In this document: positions 24,404-33,178 of the stretch, piece after piece
Position numbering within the stretch: position 1 is the first letter of the stretch
Layout of the letters: every line of letters starts with the position of its first letter
Virus record (IMG/VR): IMGVR_UViG_3300030060_003948
Location: 1 to 33,178 of that record
Direction: 5' to 3' (one strand)
DNA from: a virus
Length of the DNA: 33,178 nucleotides
Translations under genes and position numbers: made by a program
Notes under the pieces: model-generated
Seen by the model: only the letters and a program-made list of their open reading frames with translations
What the model was told of the DNA's origin: nothing
Database searches by the model: none

Positions 24404-25942
24404 TTACTCAACAAAATCAATAACAGCGTGAGTTTCAGGCAACATTACCTCAAGACCCGCTTCTGTTATAATCATGTCTTTTCTGCCGTCAATGTCGTTA
24501 TCTTGAACATTAGTTTCAACAAAAGTATCTCTCGATATTCCGTTTCCACTTAATGGTCGATAAGAAACATTAGCAAGATCGATACATACAGCTTTATCAG
24601 CCATATCATTTCTAAACAACGGATGAGCTACGAAATTCATAGCACCATATGATGTTTTGATTGAAGCTATATCGATTGGCATGAAACTAGAACCTTTAAC
24701 ATCTAAAGTAGCAGCAAACACGTCTTTATTGTTTGTTGCAGTTCCATCACTAGCTTTAGTAAATGAATTAGACAAGAAGTTGCCGTCACCCATTTTAAGT
24801 AAACTATTGATAACTTTTCTAGATGTTAAGCATAGTTTCTGTCCACTATTTCCAGATTCATAACTCATGAAGTCATCCATTACATCAACTATACCATCAT
24901 AGTTAAATCCTGCTTTAACGTCATAAGTACTATCTGAACCAGCAGCAGCAGTACCCTTATTATAATCTAATTCGTACCTTTTGCCACCTTTTGATTCTAG
25001 AAACGGTACTATACCCCAAGATGATCTAACATCAGCAGTATTATACTTTCCATAACCAAATAAGAAAGCATTTTCTAGGTCCATTTTGTGTGCTTTAATG
25101 TGCTCAGCATAAATTCTTTGCCATTCATTAGCATAGCCTCTATACTTTGTAGCCATCATTGAACCACTCATTAATGGAACTGCTGTTTTAAATATCTGAG
25201 TATAAAACTCTGCACTAGAGATTTCATCTCTGAAACCTTCTGGAGCTTCTGTAGCCTCACCCCATTGAGATCCCATTACTTGACCAGCTTTTGCAAATGT
25301 AGAATTTGTAGCTCCCCAAGTAACTTCACTATTAGTAGACATTGCAATAAAGTTTCCAACTGGTATAATTGCTACACCACCTTTATCTTTACCTTTGTCT
25401 CCTGAAGTATCTTGATTCCAGTTAGTACCATCATGCTTTAATATAACAGGCTCAGCAGTAAGTTTATATGCTACTCCACCAACTCTAACTACTTGATTCT
25501 TAGTTAAAAAGATAGGTGAAAACATACCTGCAGTATTAGAACCTAACGAAGTTAAGCCTTTTACTAATTTACCTTGATGCGAGTAATCAACTTCAAATGC
25601 AATGTGAGTAGGTACTACCTGATCACCACCGCCTTCTGAAGTTTCATTGGTTGAAGCAGCAAGAACTGCATCTACCCAATCATTACTAGCATCTGTTACT
25701 GCAACACCTGTTGCTGTAAAGTTACGTCTTTGCCATTGGTTTCTATATTCTAAAGGTCTCCATACTGTTTCATCGATAGGCTTTTTACCTAGCTTTGACA
25801 GATATGAGAAGAAAATTGATGTTTCTGGAGCTAACTCTGCAACTTTATCACCAATGCCAAACGTTCTTCTTATATTATCAATAGCTGGTCCGCCCTGCAC
25901 ATTAAAAGCAGTAGATGGAGTACTTGTTTTCAAGTTTGCCAT
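24404..25942 (-). CDS. Major capsid protein, 512 aa
   Basis: The gene lies directly after the scaffold, the usual place of the HK97-fold shell protein, and has the usual size. The N-terminus includes DKVAELAPETSIFFSYLSKL and VWRPLEYRNQWQRRNF. Near residues 272-296 is the WQRIYAEHIKAHKMDLENAF helix followed by LFGYGKY, a pattern shared by several capsid families in which a long spine helix ends in an LFG turn. The C-terminus contains the P-loop/A-domain-like segment DGRKDMIITEAGLEVMLPET. AAGGAGG lies 10 bases before the ATG. It is followed by the GC hairpin. No serine-protease domain or cleavage signal is obvious, so maturation may be through the scaffold only. Confidence 0.85.
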   Translation of the reverse strand: MANLKTSTPSTAFNVQGGPAIDNIRRTFGIGDKVAELAPETSIFFSYLSKLGKKPIDETVWRPLEYRNQWQRRNFTATGVAVTDASNDWVDAVLAASTNETSEGGGDQVVPTHIAFEVDYSHQGKLVKGLTSLGSNTAGMFSPIFLTKNQVVRVGGVAYKLTAEPVILKHDGTNWNQDTSGDKGKDKGGVAIIPVGNFIAMSTNSEVTWGATNSTFAKAGQVMGSQWGEATEAPEGFRDEISSAEFYTQIFKTAVPLMSGSMMATKYRGYANEWQRIYAEHIKAHKMDLENAFLFGYGKYNTADVRSSWGIVPFLESKGGKRYELDYNKGTAAAGSDSTYDVKAGFNYDGIVDVMDDFMSYESGNSGQKLCLTSRKVINSLLKMGDGNFLSNSFTKASDGTATNNKDVFAATLDVKGSSFMPIDIASIKTSYGAMNFVAHPLFRNDMADKAVCIDLANVSYRPLSGNGISRDTFVETNVQDNDIDGRKDMIITEAGLEVMLPETHAVIDFVE

Positions 25943-26964: not shown

Positions 26965-29352
26965 CTATTTTTTCCTCTCTTTAGGCTGCTTCTTACCGCT
27001 AGAAGGTGAGCCAGTGTTGTTGTCTTTGGCGGCGTCTTGAAGTTCTTTTCCAATCATTGAAAGATTATCTTCGAGTCGTTTTTCAAATAGCGTACCAGCT
27101 AATTTAGCCTTATTAGATGTAGAATCTAATTCGCCTTTGAACTTCTCTACTTCTACCTTTTGCTTCAGGTGAACATTCTCTCTAGTCATAGTTTGCATAT
27201 CACCTTGTAGGTCTTTGATTTGCTCTTTTGCTCCTTCGAGTTGTGCTGTAAGCTGTTCGATAGTATCTGTTCTTTGGAGAACTCCTTCCATGTCGAAAAC
27301 TTCTGTTTTCTTTAGGACTTCTGTTCTGTCGACAATACCTTTTGAGTATGCATCCATATAAAATTCGAGTTCCGCATATCTATTAGACGGAAGTGTCGAG
27401 CCTGATACATAGACAACGTCATACTGACCAACTGTAATATCGTTAGCCACTTGTATCTCATCTGTTTTGTCGTCATACAATTTTTTATTAATAGCATATT
27501 CGCTAAGCGAATTGTTTGGTTGAACAATTCTAAATACTTTTTCTTCTTGATATAATTCTTGCATCATTTGTATAGCTATTTTAGCTACTCTAGTTAATGC
27601 TCCCTCTACATCTGCTAATTTAGACTTAATTTTTCTTTGTCCAAACTCGTCTAAAGATATAGTTGCTTTATAAGTTTGTGGGGCAGCTTGAGAATTGCCC
27701 ATCATCATTTCGTAGAGTCCTAACTGGTGGTCGATGTCGTTTTTAGCAGTCTGTTCGTTATTATAGAGCTCATTAGGTAGTGGTGATGGACTAGCTACAA
27801 CTGGCTGCCCCATATCAAAGTCTACCTCTATTCCTACTCCAGGTTGCGCCCACTTTTGTTCAAACTCTTGCATATCTACTGATCCTGAAGGTATTAAAAC
27901 TTTCATATTTGTAGATGTTATTGCATGAGATATAATTAGTGAGCGTGTTTTATTAATGTAATCCTGAAGTCCTTTAACCATACGCACATCTGAAACGGGG
28001 AAAGGTGTTCTTGTGTGTAAGTTAACAATAGGAACTATTGGGTAGCTACTAGTTGGCAGCACCCTTGAATAGATATATTTATTTCCTATAACGACGCATT
28101 GTTTTACTTTTCTGACAGAAATAGGTACAACTTCAATAAGTCCTTCACCTACTAAGTCAGCTTTATTTTTCATTTCAACACCTGGTAACTCAGTTACTAA
28201 ACCAGCTTCTTGCATTGCATTTATTTTTGCATCTTCAATAGCTTTATCCATTTTATCCATATGTTCAGACAATTCAAATTCCATTCTATCTGGAAGCATA
28301 TTGCCTAATTGGACTTGTTCAGCTAACCTTTGTTCCATTTCTTGATATTCAATTTGCAATTCTTCTTCTATTTTGTGTATATCTTCTTCAATAAGTTTTT
28401 GATTTTTATCTAAGACTTGAAGTTTCATTTTATCTATAGAATCTTGAGCTTTTTGAATGTCTTGCCCTTCATAAATCTTGCCTTCATGTACTCCTACAGG
28501 TGTTTGTAAATAATCTTCAAAAGTTTGTTCATCAAACCTAAACTCTTTTCCAGTAAATTGTTCAAAAACCCTAAACATATTTTCATTAACTTTGTAATAC
28601 CTTTCAAAGCCTCTGATATATTCATCATCTCCATCCTCCACTGTATCTATTTCACCAGGAAATGTTATACCTGTATCATCTACACCTCCTGTAATAATCT
28701 GGTCACTATCGTAAAAGCCTGTAGCAGCACTTATAGCCTTTTCGTATTGAGGATATAATGCCTTAGCTTGCTCTTTTGTAAAGTTCCTAGATATAATTAT
28801 ATTTTCTGCATCATCAAAGAAAGGATCTCTAGAATTGGGGTCAACATATACGTCAAGAGGGTCTATGTCTTTAATCATAACCTCACCTTTACCAGCATCT
28901 GCTTGTGGATTTTGATATACCATAACATATCCTAACCCAGTAACATAATAATCATCGATAGCTTGTCTAATGACAGTTCTACCATCAGATATATCGTGCA
29001 TATAAGAAAGTAAGTGATTTAAGACATTAGCGACTTTTGTATCGCTGTCTTCTCTTGGTGATACTTTGAAAGAGGGTCTATTTGCTGTTAATAATGCTTT
29101 TGCTGTTTCTACTGCTGGGTGTATTCTATTTACTACAATAGGGGCTTGACCACGAGATTTAAGAGTTTCCTCTTGTTCTTTAGTCCATTGTCTACCTAAT
29201 CTATATTCCTGGTCTTCTCTAGCCTGAACTTCCCAATGCTCTCTTTTTCTTTTATATAAATCGAATAAGCGCTTGGTTTCTTCGGCTATCTTCTTGCCAG
29301 ACTTTCCGTCGTAAGCCATATATATGTTAAAACCCCCGTTTTGTATACCCAT
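26965..29352 (-). CDS. Portal protein, P22-like
   Basis: This 795-aa protein has the P22-portal opening (REHWEVQAREDQEYRLGRQW, then RGQAPIVVNRIHPAVE at ~67-82, and NRPSFKVSPREDSD at ~91-104), the clip/wing segment IDPLDVYVDPNSRDPFFDDA (163-182) and the stem segment NDIDHQLGLYEMMMGNS. Residues ~297-386 are an unusually long charged helical insertion with coiled-coil character. The last ~110 residues form a long barrel-like helix and a Lys-rich tail. P22 portal is 725 aa, so this one is longer because of the insertion. The start at 29352 has no clear ribosome site. The ATG at 29319 (MAYDGKSG) has GGGGGT 12 bases upstream and may be the true start. It follows the terminase by 21 bases. Confidence 0.9.
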   Translation of the reverse strand: MGIQNGGFNIYMAYDGKSGKKIAEETKRLFDLYKRKREHWEVQAREDQEYRLGRQWTKEQEETLKSRGQAPIVVNRIHPAVETAKALLTANRPSFKVSPREDSDTKVANVLNHLLSYMHDISDGRTVIRQAIDDYYVTGLGYVMVYQNPQADAGKGEVMIKDIDPLDVYVDPNSRDPFFDDAENIIISRNFTKEQAKALYPQYEKAISAATGFYDSDQIITGGVDDTGITFPGEIDTVEDGDDEYIRGFERYYKVNENMFRVFEQFTGKEFRFDEQTFEDYLQTPVGVHEGKIYEGQDIQKAQDSIDKMKLQVLDKNQKLIEEDIHKIEEELQIEYQEMEQRLAEQVQLGNMLPDRMEFELSEHMDKMDKAIEDAKINAMQEAGLVTELPGVEMKNKADLVGEGLIEVVPISVRKVKQCVVIGNKYIYSRVLPTSSYPIVPIVNLHTRTPFPVSDVRMVKGLQDYINKTRSLIISHAITSTNMKVLIPSGSVDMQEFEQKWAQPGVGIEVDFDMGQPVVASPSPLPNELYNNEQTAKNDIDHQLGLYEMMMGNSQAAPQTYKATISLDEFGQRKIKSKLADVEGALTRVAKIAIQMMQELYQEEKVFRIVQPNNSLSEYAINKKLYDDKTDEIQVANDITVGQYDVVYVSGSTLPSNRYAELEFYMDAYSKGIVDRTEVLKKTEVFDMEGVLQRTDTIEQLTAQLEGAKEQIKDLQGDMQTMTRENVHLKQKVEVEKFKGELDSTSNKAKLAGTLFEKRLEDNLSMIGKELQDAAKDNNTGSPSSGKKQPKERKK

Positions 29353-29373: not shown

Positions 29374-30867
29374 CTATAAAGTCATCCAATCAAGTACTTT
29401 CTTTAATTTATTTGGTTCAGCATCCTCATCAAATGATTTTAACCTTGATGGTCTAGCACCTTCTAGTGATGTCCATAATGCATCCATAACATCGTCATGC
29501 TTACCTTTCGGGTAAGATAAAAATTCTGCTTGAGCCTCTGTATCTTGACTTCTAAAGTAAAACTCTCCTTTAGCAAACATAGGGACTAATGATAATAGTC
29601 TTTCAGATTTACGTGTTCTAGGCTTTACACCTTTTTCTAACCCTGGTATATATAGATTCTCTTCTAACATGCGTTTTTTAACTGCCGCTCTTAATGCTTC
29701 TTGATATGCAACAGTCTCTATCTTCATTTTGCGATGTCTATACTTTTTAAATCTTTCTATAATAATGTCAGGCTGCTCTGCTGGAGATACATGCTTTCTA
29801 TATAAGTCTATTAAATATTTATTTCCATCAAAATCAATGCCAATAGTTATAAGAACAAAAAAGTCTGCTCTTGCTGAAAGAGATGATGCTGGATCAACCC
29901 CTCCATATACTTCTACAGGTATAACTTCTTCTTTATCACCCTTTTGTTTAACTAAACATGGCTGACCCTCTCTTCGCTCAAAGTCATATTGATGTAGTTT
30001 AATCCACTCTGGCTTAAAAGGTGCTTCATCGGGAGATTGTGCTATATTCATGTACTCTTGGTAGAATCCATTTATATTACCTACAGATGCATATTCTTCC
30101 TTTATTTGAGATATACGCTCATTAGGAAATCTTTCGGGCCATATTGGAGAACCATCTTCATTTATTATAGAAAACCATAAAGTGTTCCATGCTGAGGAAT
30201 CTTTTGCCCAGTATAAGAAACAATCTTCAGAGATAACAGTACCTATCATAACAATACGGCCCTCATCAGATAGTGACGGTATAACTGCCTCTGTCATCCA
30301 TTTTCTATTTTTAGCTCTAGCCTCTTGTGTAAATGCGTTTAATTCTGACTCAAAGTCATCTACAATAATTAATGTAGGACGTGTATCTCCTTCAATAAAA
30401 CCCCTAACTCTTTGTCCTGTACCTACTGCTACTATACGAACACCATTAGCTGTAACTACATCTGTAGCTGTCCATCTTTTAGCTGTATTAGGCCCCATAT
30501 CTCCAAACAATGTCTTAAATTTATCACTATGAGTTAAGTGGTACTTAATACGAGATAAAAAGTTGATAGACTGCGCCTGTGATTCAGAGATGATTACGAT
30601 GAACTCCTCGTCATCTTCGTGTTTAAAAGCGATTCTGTGTAGTGGAAGGAGTAGGGAGGTTACTGTGGACTTAGCTGTACCACGAGGCGCCGCTATTAAA
30701 ACTCTTTTTTTACTTCTATCTCTTAAGTTAGAATATATTTCATGATGAAAAGGTGGAGTAGCTTTTCTAAGAGCAGTAGGAAAACAAGTACGACCAAAAA
30801 GTGCAATGTTTTTAAATAACTTTTTAAGAGCTTGTTTCTTAGCATATGCTGCTTCAAAATCATTCAT
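29374..30867 (-). CDS. terL: Terminase large subunit
   Basis: This 497-aa protein has both terminase domains. ATPase: Walker A APRGTAKST (60-68, K66), Walker B LIIVDD followed by F-E (166-173, catalytic E173) and the coupling motif MIGT (207-210). Nuclease: D325 in GGVDPASS, KIETVAYQE (~382-390) and the HDDVMDAL acidic cluster (457-464). All key residues are intact. It powers DNA packaging through the portal. The start ATG at 30867 overlaps the end of a 56-aa gene by 8 bases. It is followed by the portal gene, as in most tailed phages. The packaging type (headful or cos) cannot be told from this sequence. Confidence 0.96.
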   Translation of the reverse strand: MNDFEAAYAKKQALKKLFKNIALFGRTCFPTALRKATPPFHHEIYSNLRDRSKKRVLIAAPRGTAKSTVTSLLLPLHRIAFKHEDDEEFIVIISESQAQSINFLSRIKYHLTHSDKFKTLFGDMGPNTAKRWTATDVVTANGVRIVAVGTGQRVRGFIEGDTRPTLIIVDDFESELNAFTQEARAKNRKWMTEAVIPSLSDEGRIVMIGTVISEDCFLYWAKDSSAWNTLWFSIINEDGSPIWPERFPNERISQIKEEYASVGNINGFYQEYMNIAQSPDEAPFKPEWIKLHQYDFERREGQPCLVKQKGDKEEVIPVEVYGGVDPASSLSARADFFVLITIGIDFDGNKYLIDLYRKHVSPAEQPDIIIERFKKYRHRKMKIETVAYQEALRAAVKKRMLEENLYIPGLEKGVKPRTRKSERLLSLVPMFAKGEFYFRSQDTEAQAEFLSYPKGKHDDVMDALWTSLEGARPSRLKSFDEDAEPNKLKKVLDWMTL

Positions 30868-31030
30868 CTTCTTTTATATCACATTCACAATCTTTACACT
30901 TAACAAATTTTCTAGGTGGATGTGAGTCCTTATCTAGCTCCATTACTTTAGCCATTATTTTATTTACAAGAAAATCTAGCCTAATTAATTCAGTTGCAAC
31001 CTGTCTCATTGTTGGTTTTTTAGGTTTCAT
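30860..31030 (-). CDS. Small protein wedged between terminase genes, 56 aa
   Basis: The frame reads MKPKKPTMRQVATELIRLDF, continues as one helix, and ends with a CKDCEC cluster and an acidic tail. It overlaps the end of the small terminase gene by 11 bases and the start of the large one by 8 bases, so it is fully embedded in the packaging operon. No Shine-Dalgarno is visible, suggesting coupled translation. The C-x2-C-x-C group may bind a metal, perhaps across subunits, as there are too few Cys for a complete finger in one chain. No family is recognised. A packaging accessory role is inferred from position. Confidence 0.75.
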   Translation of the reverse strand: MKPKKPTMRQVATELIRLDFLVNKIMAKVMELDKDSHPPRKFVKCKDCECDIKEDE

Positions 31031-31793
31031 CTGTAGATGTCTTTGCTTCTATCTTAGTCTGTGTACCTTTAAGATGCTGTTCTTCTTCATTTATTTCATC
31101 TAATAGCTTTCTTGTAGCAGTAGCTTCTAATTGAGTAGTAGTTTTAGTTACTGTCTTGTCTTTCATACCTAACATATCCTGTATATTCTCTACAACTCTA
31201 AGAAAGTTTGTTATATCTTTCTTTTCTTTAGCCATTTCTAAAGCTTGGTCTAGTAAGTCAATTGTTTTTGATCTATTATGACCTTTTTCTGCTAATACTT
31301 CTTTTAATTCGTCTTTTACCATAGACTTAAACTCCTGTGTTCTCATCCATCTTTTTACTGTCCTCCTCTTTGAAGTGCTAGGATTACTAATAACAGTATC
31401 AATGGCCAAGTCCATATTAAAACATACACTATAGACCATTGCGAGGTTTTTCCACTCCTGGGTACCTTTACGTACTTCGAGCTGAGGCTTGCCAGACATT
31501 GTGTGATTAGATAATCTGCCGTCTGCTTTAAGATTTTGATTAGGATACTTAGGAGAATGAAAGGCGTACCCAAAAGGCATACGAATATAATAACTATCAA
31601 CTCCATTATCCCCAGTATAACACTTCTTCTGGATAACCTTTCCAACATAGTTATCATCAGTGAGCGCATATTCCCCTTCTTCTGCTTCTTTCCAATATAC
31701 ATACCCAATTTCTTTCTTGTCAGCCTCTTCTTTATTATAAATTTTATAGGTAGTTTTACCTATATCTTTATGTTTAATGCTTATTTCGTACAT
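31020..31793 (-). CDS. terS: Terminase small subunit-like protein
   Basis: This 257-aa protein sits just before terL with only the 56-aa gene between. Residues ~112-165 are helical with a helix-turn-helix-like pattern (EWKNLAMVYSVCFNMDLAID, then STSKRRTVKRWMRTQEF), followed by a helix-rich oligomerisation segment (~175-210: LLDQALEMAKEKKDITNFLR) and a polar, charged tail. This DNA-binding-then-oligomer layout is typical of small terminases. The N-terminal ~105 residues are beta-like (YVYWKEAEEGEYALT, YYIRMPFGYAFHS) and unusual for the family. The ATG is 1 base after the AT-hook gene stop. The call rests on position and helix pattern. Confidence 0.78.
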   Translation of the reverse strand: MYEISIKHKDIGKTTYKIYNKEEADKKEIGYVYWKEAEEGEYALTDDNYVGKVIQKKCYTGDNGVDSYYIRMPFGYAFHSPKYPNQNLKADGRLSNHTMSGKPQLEVRKGTQEWKNLAMVYSVCFNMDLAIDTVISNPSTSKRRTVKRWMRTQEFKSMVKDELKEVLAEKGHNRSKTIDLLDQALEMAKEKKDITNFLRVVENIQDMLGMKDKTVTKTTTQLEATATRKLLDEINEEEQHLKGTQTKIEAKTSTDET

Positions 31794-31794
31794 C

Positions 31795-31884
31795 TTAGTA
31801 CTTTTTCTTAGATTTAGCCTTCTTTTTTTTCTTTTTTGGTGGTCTACCTACCTTTTTACCATATGTACCTTTACCTTTAGGCAT
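31795..31884 (-). CDS. AT-hook-like microprotein, 29 aa
   Basis: The complete frame begins MPKGKGTYGKKVGRPPKKKK and finishes with a Lys-rich tail and Tyr. Of 29 residues, 14 are Lys, one is Arg, and none is acidic. The core V-G-R-P-P-K-K (residues 12-18) matches an AT-hook, the Gly-Arg-Pro loop that sits in the minor groove of AT-rich DNA. A very strong AAGGAGG site (31891-31897) lies 6 bases before the ATG, inside the end of the endolysin gene. The gene stops 1 base before the small-terminase start. Such a short peptide could condense or mark the AT-rich phage DNA; this is inference. Confidence 0.8.
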   Translation of the reverse strand: MPKGKGTYGKKVGRPPKKKKKKAKSKKKY

Positions 31885-31885
31885 A

Positions 31886-32281
31886 TTAGTCCTCCTTTAT
31901 TTCAAAATGTGGGAAATCATCAAATCTATTGTCATGAACATACCAGTCTTGGTCCCAATCACCGCCCCATCTAAGGTTTATCGCCATAGACTTAGCGATG
32001 CCAATAACAAAACCAGCGAACAAATGAAAACGTTCTCTGTCATCCCAATCAATAGGATAAGGGACCACATCAACAGCCCTACTTGGATTAGAGTTATGAC
32101 GACCATTGGGGTATTTAACCTTAGTTTTACCTTCTTCAAATAATTTATTTTGTCTTTCAGCACTTCTATGCCCCTCTATTACACTGCAATCTACGTGTTT
32201 TATTACTTCGTTAAGCACCTTTTGTATTCTTTCATCACAGGTAGCTAAATTCTTTTTACTTCTACTTCCAAATTTTGGCAT
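31886..32281 (-). CDS. Endolysin, L-alanyl-D-glutamate peptidase (M15/VanY family)
   Basis: This 131-aa, single-domain protein matches T5-type M15 endolysins. The family blocks are EGHRSAERQNKLFEEGKTKV (36-55), H62-NSNPSRAV-D71 (zinc ligands), VVPYPIDW (72-79) and D122-F-P-H125-FE (catalytic Asp and third zinc ligand). All predicted catalytic and metal residues are present. It cleaves the L-Ala/D-Glu bond in peptidoglycan stem peptides, and its lack of a signal peptide means it needs a holin to reach the wall. The start is TAATG-coupled to the upstream 268-aa gene, with AAGGAA before it. Holin-like genes are ~13-15 kb away, so lysis functions are split across the operon. Confidence 0.92.
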   Translation of the reverse strand: MPKFGSRSKKNLATCDERIQKVLNEVIKHVDCSVIEGHRSAERQNKLFEEGKTKVKYPNGRHNSNPSRAVDVVPYPIDWDDRERFHLFAGFVIGIAKSMAINLRWGGDWDQDWYVHDNRFDDFPHFEIKED

Positions 32282-33087
32282 TAAAATATTCCTTTTACTT
32301 TATCTAAGGCTCTTGCTAAGAATGTTTGAGTTTTATTGCTAGATTTAGGCCTATTTAACTCATGATTAATATCAGATCGTCTTGTTAAATAGTCTTCGCT
32401 ACTACCAACATATATATCTGAGCCTTCATACACTCCTGTATCTTCGTTAAATGTCCATGTTTGATTCTCATTAGCAGCTTTGCCTTCAGGTGTATCTCCC
32501 ATAGCTAGTGGCATATGTGCTTCCCAAGCTTCTTGAGTAGTTTTAGCGTTGTGAACTTGTTGACCTCTTTTTTGCAGGTTATCCCATGCATTACGAACAA
32601 TCTCTTCATCCCAAATTGTCCCGTCCTGGTCTACAAAGTTACCGTCAGGGTCTGTATGAAACTGATACGAACCTAAATTAAACTCTGAATAATTCCTTAA
32701 ATCTCCAGTATCACCATATGCTGTTATAGCGTCAGTACCGCTAGTAAAATGACTATCTACAAGCTCACCATATTTATTATAAAAATTTCTCTCATTAACA
32801 CCGTCTGACATTTTTGAGTAGTCAATAACAGGGTTACCCTCATTATCTAAGACATAATTATCCATATGCCCATCTTTTTTAACTTGCCTAGGGTTTAAAC
32901 CTTCTGAGTTTAGATTCTTGTAAAATGAGTCGTATGATGCACTATTGTCTTTATTACCACTTATAGTTTCTTCTTCTAGAAACTTACTCCCCATCTTAGA
33001 GTCAATATTAGTCGTAAACTCACCTGGCTTTATCTTGTTTTTTATCTGGTCATAAGACGCAGTTACTAGATTATTTTTTTCTGCCAT
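32281..33087 (-). CDS. Hypothetical virion-type protein, 268 aa
   Basis: I do not recognise a family. The protein is polar and acidic, rich in Asn, Asp, Tyr and Gly, with repeated short turns of the D-x-D-G or N-E-G-N type (LDNEGNPVID ~78-87, DPDGNFVDQDGT ~144-155) and an amphipathic C-terminal helix (FLARALDKVKGIF). The style resembles the 458-aa internal-virion protein at 4613-5989. The ATG at 33087 has AAGG about 10 bases upstream and overlaps the end of another gene by 17 bases; its stop forms TAATG with the endolysin gene. It is possibly a virion component. No enzyme motif was seen. Confidence 0.75.
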   Translation of the reverse strand: MAEKNNLVTASYDQIKNKIKPGEFTTNIDSKMGSKFLEEETISGNKDNSASYDSFYKNLNSEGLNPRQVKKDGHMDNYVLDNEGNPVIDYSKMSDGVNERNFYNKYGELVDSHFTSGTDAITAYGDTGDLRNYSEFNLGSYQFHTDPDGNFVDQDGTIWDEEIVRNAWDNLQKRGQQVHNAKTTQEAWEAHMPLAMGDTPEGKAANENQTWTFNEDTGVYEGSDIYVGSSEDYLTRRSDINHELNRPKSSNKTQTFLARALDKVKGIF

Positions 33088-33178
33088 TTTTAGGGTACCT
33101 TCTTACGTTATTTACTGTTACTGTTGTATTCCACTTTGTCGTTACTGTATCAGTCTTTATAGGTTTATATTTACTATT
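33071..33178 (-). CDS. C-terminal end of an unknown gene, partial
   Basis: From the right edge one minus-strand frame is open and codes for 35 residues (NSKYKPIKTDTVTTKWNTTV, then NNVRRYPKNGRKK) before TAA at 33071. The other two minus frames stop quickly. The basic tail and the 17-base overlap with the following start, typical of this gapless operon, support a real gene end. Nothing can be said of its function. Confidence 0.5.
   Translation of the reverse strand, partial: NSKYKPIKTDTVTTKWNTTVTVNNVRRYPKNGRKK

Follow-up and report, generated by a model that had tools for sequence, protein, structure and literature searches.

The locus studied here raises the question whether a reading frame of 29 codons encodes a genuine phage protein and, if so, on what that protein acts. 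The frame lies in a stretch of 33,178 nucleotides (the window), which is part of a 53,865-base IMG/VR virus record. It starts with the ATG at 31884 and runs on the minus strand to 31795, at the coordinates that the original prediction had given (Table 1); the plus-strand reading of the same interval is another peptide. The description of a frame with about half Lys, no acidic residue and a Gly-Arg-Pro (GRP) core was likewise accurate: Lys occupies 14 of the 29 positions, acidic residues are absent, and GRP forms residues 13 to 15. The ribosome site is AAGGAGG with a spacing of 6 nt to the ATG. Further downstream, the same strand encodes the large terminase subunit (TerL), a P22-like portal and an SU10-like capsid protein. 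A second small conserved ORF with a ribosome site, located at 33071-33178 on the minus strand, is truncated where the window stops. In relatives of the window phage this ORF encodes 31-44 aa with the pattern SKY...KT...VDN.R.YP...K and lies directly upstream of the endolysin gene (present in L402, L404-L409, L412, L415, L416 and L421).

Table 1. Features of the window around the microprotein gene.
Feature	Position	Strand	Basis
AT-hook-like microprotein, 29 aa, MPKGKGTYGKKVGRPPKKKKKKAKSKKKY	31795..31884	-	ORF list and translation; family conservation
Shine-Dalgarno AAGGAGG, 6 nt before ATG, within 3' end of endolysin gene	31891..31897	-	read from sequence
Gly-Arg-Pro core, codons 13-15	31840..31848	-	positions counted from sequence
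Endolysin-like gene, upstream neighbour, 1-nt gap	31886..32281	-	phrog_465, E 7.3e-41
257-aa gene, downstream neighbour, 1-nt gap, without assigned function	31020..31793	-	ORF list; PHROGs, Pfam, PDB and fold searches
Terminase large subunit (TerL)	29374..30867	-	phrog_38; Pfam
P22-like portal	26965..29352	-	phrog_156, PF16510
SU10-like major capsid protein	24404..25942	-	phrog_1328, PF17236

The microprotein is a real, conserved phage family. A scan of IMG/VR with a pattern that fixed MPKGKGTYG only matched at least 119 contigs, and among the matches listed GRP followed at residues 13-15 in 119 of 119. An exact-codon pattern, for which the listing is complete, returned 56 stretches, 51 of them new, with GRP in the same place in 51 of 51. 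Since all stretches found by MPKGKGTYG alone continue with GRP (170 of 170 among the matches listed when both scans are pooled), the window peptide is more than a chance occurrence, and the predicted basic microprotein with an AT-hook core is supported. The MPKGKGTYG sub-type was estimated very roughly at 1,300 contigs (1,333 from an overlap of 5 and 1,425 from codon frequencies), the first scan set not being a random sample. The same pattern gave six stretches in GTDB genomes, of which five were genuine (L231 was dropped), all on contigs of metagenome-assembled genomes and at least one from a record titled groundwater; with so few matches, all of this kind, the microprotein is not a common host gene. 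In total 352 members were collected (276 distinct), GRP being part of the search pattern in two of the three big scans. The family went unrecognised in Pfam, PHROG and PDB searches, and a search of the accessible literature for MPKGKGTYG found no paper.

In tblastn the window peptide had no match in the phage collection at E≤1, a search that also misses copies known from blastn, and other members gave nothing useful at E≤10 in an equally uninformative search; low-complexity masking is the likely cause. By blastn, the first 56 nt of the gene were matched in eight phage records. In the cultured Prochlorococcus phages NATL2A-133, 9515-10a and P-SSP10 the ORF MPKGKGTYGTKKGRPPKKK has its start on the final base of the scaffold (head assembly) CDS; P-SSP2 has the ORF MPKGKGTYGTKKGRPPKK, which begins 2 nt past that CDS. 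None of these four phages has an annotated CDS over the microprotein, which bears out the expectation that the gene is too short for usual gene calling; P-SSP6, P-SSP3, P-SCSP-R27W and one uncultured record are known from the blastn match only. The motif was not seen in P-SSP7 (44,970 of 45,176 bases read), Syn5, HTVC010P, HTVC019P or HMO-2011 (49,999 of 55,282 bases read).

Strong purifying selection acts on the frame. G13, R14 and P15 are invariant in 114 of 114 distinct cores, while all their synonymous codons occur. With the searched residues excluded, pN/pS in frame was 0.127 for codons 10-18 and 0.148 for codons 10 to the end, compared with 2.4 and 3.9 in the other frames (266 pairs from 94 sequences, the pairs not being independent). 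Conservation of the frame had been named as a check on which the prediction could fail, and the outcome was the opposite of a refutation, with 0.13-0.15 in frame against more than 2 elsewhere. The same data bear on the reading that the ORF is a leader or stalling peptide regulating the downstream gene, or a chance ORF. Its Pro-Pro-Lys and AAA-rich codons and the tight gene spacing would suit a leader; however, synonymous codons vary freely and residues do not, the second Pro is variable, being present in 173 of 276 distinct peptides, and the downstream genes differ between loci. This reading was rejected on the grounds of pN/pS, the invariant core residues and the varied downstream genes, and we give it almost no credence.

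All 352 members share one architecture: an N-terminal (A/S/P/C)PxGxGTYG block, then [S/T/K][K/Q/T][V/R/K]GRP[P/K/S/A]KK with a K-x-GRP-x-K core, then a Lys-rich tail that conserves charge rather than sequence. In 324 of 352 members the 30 codons ahead of the start contain an in-frame stop; therefore the block is truly N-terminal in most of them. A scan for stretches with a codon other than ATG in the start position yielded at least 120 matches. Among the matches listed, 116 were genuine and L261, L303, L305 and L328 were discarded as chance hits; most of the genuine ones have one extra residue before the Pro, with a start just ahead of it. A role as fusion domain was discarded, given that an in-frame stop or an edge occurs within 30 residues in 107 of these 116. 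The shortest members have 18 aa (14 of them) and 19 aa (26), the longest a few hundred; the median is 28 aa, and 336 of 351 closed ORFs do not exceed 60 aa. Lys and Arg make up 41% of residues, and among 261 distinct peptides of up to 60 aa, 238 are free of acidic residues, the median net charge being +13. One of GGAG, GAGG or AGGA precedes 67.5% of 351 starts compared with 10.1% of 6,997 random ATGs, and a ribosome site or start-stop coupling is present in 283 of 351 members. Residue 2 is P, A, S or C in 345 of 352 members, which suggests that the start Met would be removed. Members reach contigs of up to 62% GC. In database searches the core was unrecognised in PHROGs and a 28-aa member had no PDB match; the extension of the long member L017 weakly matches a scaffold family (PHROG search, E 8e-4). 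Seventeen of the 352 members (L072, L148, L149, L165, L192 and others) have an extra LTxxQKxLP...KKK tail, a separate module. The gene was single-copy in 30 of 30 records searched, two of these matches being chance; contig L290 carries two different copies about 1.35 kb apart on its minus strand.

An AT-hook is defined, in the accessible part of the source, as a GRP core flanked by Lys or Arg, often by Pro, and without a fold in the absence of DNA (PMC11354804). In the microprotein, basic residues flank the GRP core on either side: in the 276 distinct peptides residue 11 is Lys in 221, residue 12 Arg or Lys in 148 (Val 116, Arg 82, Lys 66), and the second and third positions after GRP are Lys in 246 and 226. 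The 13-position Pfam model AT_hook (PF02178) matched none of ten member proteins and none of ten records at E≤10; control genomes matched in 7 of 14, none above the curated cut-off. As the motif definition applies but the Pfam model does not score the peptide, its sequence is best labelled AT-hook-like rather than a member of Pfam AT_hook. One might instead suppose that the peptide binds RNA or the ribosome, its basic Gly/Lys-rich tail resembling those of ribosomal proteins. The high Lys content is compatible with this, as is a 33-aa member predicted to lack secondary structure and fold (pLDDT 66). Against it, GRP with basic flanks is found in 276 of 276 distinct peptides, where two search patterns included GRP, and in 170 of 170 among the unbiased matches listed. 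RNA or ribosome binding is thus improbable.

The genomic setting would place the microprotein among late functions. It shares a strand with the labelled virion genes at 234 of 235 loci, compared with 81% of other ORFs there, in 187 of 188 distinct peptides and in 23 of 23 mixed-strand loci, as would be expected of a protamine-like virion protein. Among long contigs this was so in 15 of 16, while in the remaining one each strand has head labels; head-gene labels came from our own profile searches, which miss genes (G002, one of the 16, has no head label), and for two long contigs the strand test used large ORFs in place of such labels. Because it is on the virion-gene strand, the microprotein is probably a late gene. 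This placement favours DNA condensation over an effect on host chromatin. It also bears on the possibility that the microprotein acts late as a regulator, altering transcription by coating phage promoters or the host nucleoid in the manner of a xenogeneic silencer and staying out of the virion. AT-hook motifs in the bacterial DNA-binding proteins WhiB7 (PMC11354804) and Lsr2 (PMC10011098), as far as the accessible parts of these papers go, and the patchy, portable distribution would agree with such a role, but the microprotein keeps to the virion strand in every mixed-strand locus, has no oligomerisation domain and is only 18 aa long in 14 members and 19 aa in 26. We consider a regulator unlikely.

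Proximity to head genes is frequent without being general. Of 349 loci, 205 have a labelled head gene no more than five genes away; where five genes are available on each side, one is labelled in 34 of 67 loci and none in 33 of 67. On long contigs, 7 of 15 place the microprotein among the closest 14% or so of gene slots to head genes (P about 0.003; 6 of 14 and P about 0.01 after dropping one of two alike contigs). A scaffold gene is directly upstream in 37 loci, and in 30 of these the microprotein starts between -12 and +25 nt from the scaffold stop. The genes next to the microprotein vary across the family, from scaffold, MCP, portal and TerL to tail, lysis and unassigned genes; at some loci it is accompanied by lysis genes or sits by itself where the late strand ends. 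Among the neighbour clusters are T7-like (phrog_449), P22-like (phrog_156), phrog_145 and phrog_1216 portals and phrog_2 and phrog_38 terminases; the carriers therefore have unrelated heads. A protein of about 95 aa without assigned function (phrog_7595) is encoded within five genes of the microprotein in 58 of 349 loci.

Two more specific associations were weighed. The endolysin gene adjoins the microprotein in the window and in relatives, and 39 of 349 loci have a lysis gene no more than five genes away, so that a cationic lysis peptide acting beside the endolysin, comparable to disruptin, might be considered; yet the core is almost devoid of hydrophobic residues and at most loci none of the genes around it has a lysis label, which makes such a function very improbable. 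The original prediction had further put the peptide next to the small terminase, an identification that the 257-aa neighbour does not support. It is merely positioned like a small terminase, a 56-aa ORF separating it from TerL, and gave (i) no TerS match in PHROGs or Pfam; (ii) a best hit of E 0.074, to a zinc-finger protein, among PDB sequences; (iii) no fold match at E≤0.001 with a poor predicted model (pLDDT 63.5). Linkage to the terminase is not conserved either: TerL is labelled within five genes in 91 of 349 loci and directly adjacent in 12.

Relatives of the window phage were defined by the 257-aa neighbour (33 loci), and 32 records, many of them short fragments, were searched. The microprotein is present in 5 of the 32 and absent from 27, among them records of 52,948, 52,441 and 49,086 bases. 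It lies after the endolysin gene in L400, L409 and L412 but before it in L405 and, by coordinates, in L402. The slot between the endolysin and 257-aa genes (31793-31886 in the window; L400-L421) holds the microprotein, small membrane-like ORFs, proteins of 77-240 aa, or nothing. Being found in 5 of 32 relatives and on either side of the endolysin gene, the microprotein is accessory and mobile: it was gained, lost and moved between positions. Hence neither the expected recurrence of the peptide before the terminase in related phages nor a specific tie to the terminase survives, the family-wide neighbours varying as well. An essential packaging factor is ruled out for the window lineage, where packaging in most relatives does not need the microprotein. 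Gain and loss among close relatives, the late strand and the basic chemistry would also fit a virion peptide injected with the DNA to protect the incoming genome against host nucleases or defence systems; we deem such accessory cargo rather improbable.

Our preferred reading, to which we assign a probability of roughly 0.45, is an accessory late gene for a free-standing AT-hook-like peptide that binds phage DNA, likely in a protamine-like manner in the head or during its filling. Several results count against it: Pfam AT_hook does not score the family, most relatives of the window phage do without the gene, about half of the loci with five genes on each side have no labelled head gene, some loci put it next to lysis genes or by itself at the late strand's end, and contigs with members reach 62% GC. 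The peptide would bind newly made phage DNA late in infection, GRP inserting in the minor groove of AT tracts and the Lys-rich tail screening phosphates; it would most likely remain on the capsid DNA as a protamine-like counter-ion, or aid head filling. The conserved N-terminal block may be a docking element for a partner. A bolder version, which we regard as doubtful, is that the peptide moves among unrelated head modules as a portable protamine: translated with scaffold or other late genes, it would dock through its free N-terminal PxGxGTYG block on a shared head or packaging surface and ride the packaged DNA by its AT-hook and Lys tail. With members of as few as 18 residues, the gene would then rank among the smallest known that encode a conserved protein. 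A tryptic digest would give fragments too short for detection, and existing virion proteomics would therefore have missed the microprotein; the accessible part of a cyanophage cryo-EM paper held no mass spectrometry information (PMC10575957). Because cultured Prochlorococcus phages carry the gene, its role is directly testable. As the family also shows, annotation overlooks conserved genes of 18-30 codons even in reference phages.

The general view of tailed phages is that their DNA is packed bare, with small cations neutralising its charge, and we know of none that uses a protamine-like virion peptide. A late DNA-binding peptide common to phages with different heads would call this view into question. 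Among viral proteins, adenovirus mu and VII are small and very basic and are thought to neutralise packaged DNA; they share small size and strong basicity with the microprotein but have no AT-hook block. The accessible literature on AT-hooks in phages, small phage proteins and protamine-like packaging contained nothing on this family. Phage-borne AT-hook motifs as such have precedents, since filamentous and PM2-like prophages of Cupriavidus and Ralstonia carry AT-hook proteins (PMC10011098, PMC1950889); in the accessible parts of these sources they are considered for their part in the regulation or replication of other kinds of phage, and the likeness is one of description only. With the AT-hooks of HMGA and WhiB7 (PF02178), as characterised in the accessible sources, the microprotein shares the GRP core, the Lys/Arg flanks, often a Pro, and the unfolded state without DNA. 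It differs from them in being hardly more than one hook joined to a fixed N-terminal PxGxGTYG block.
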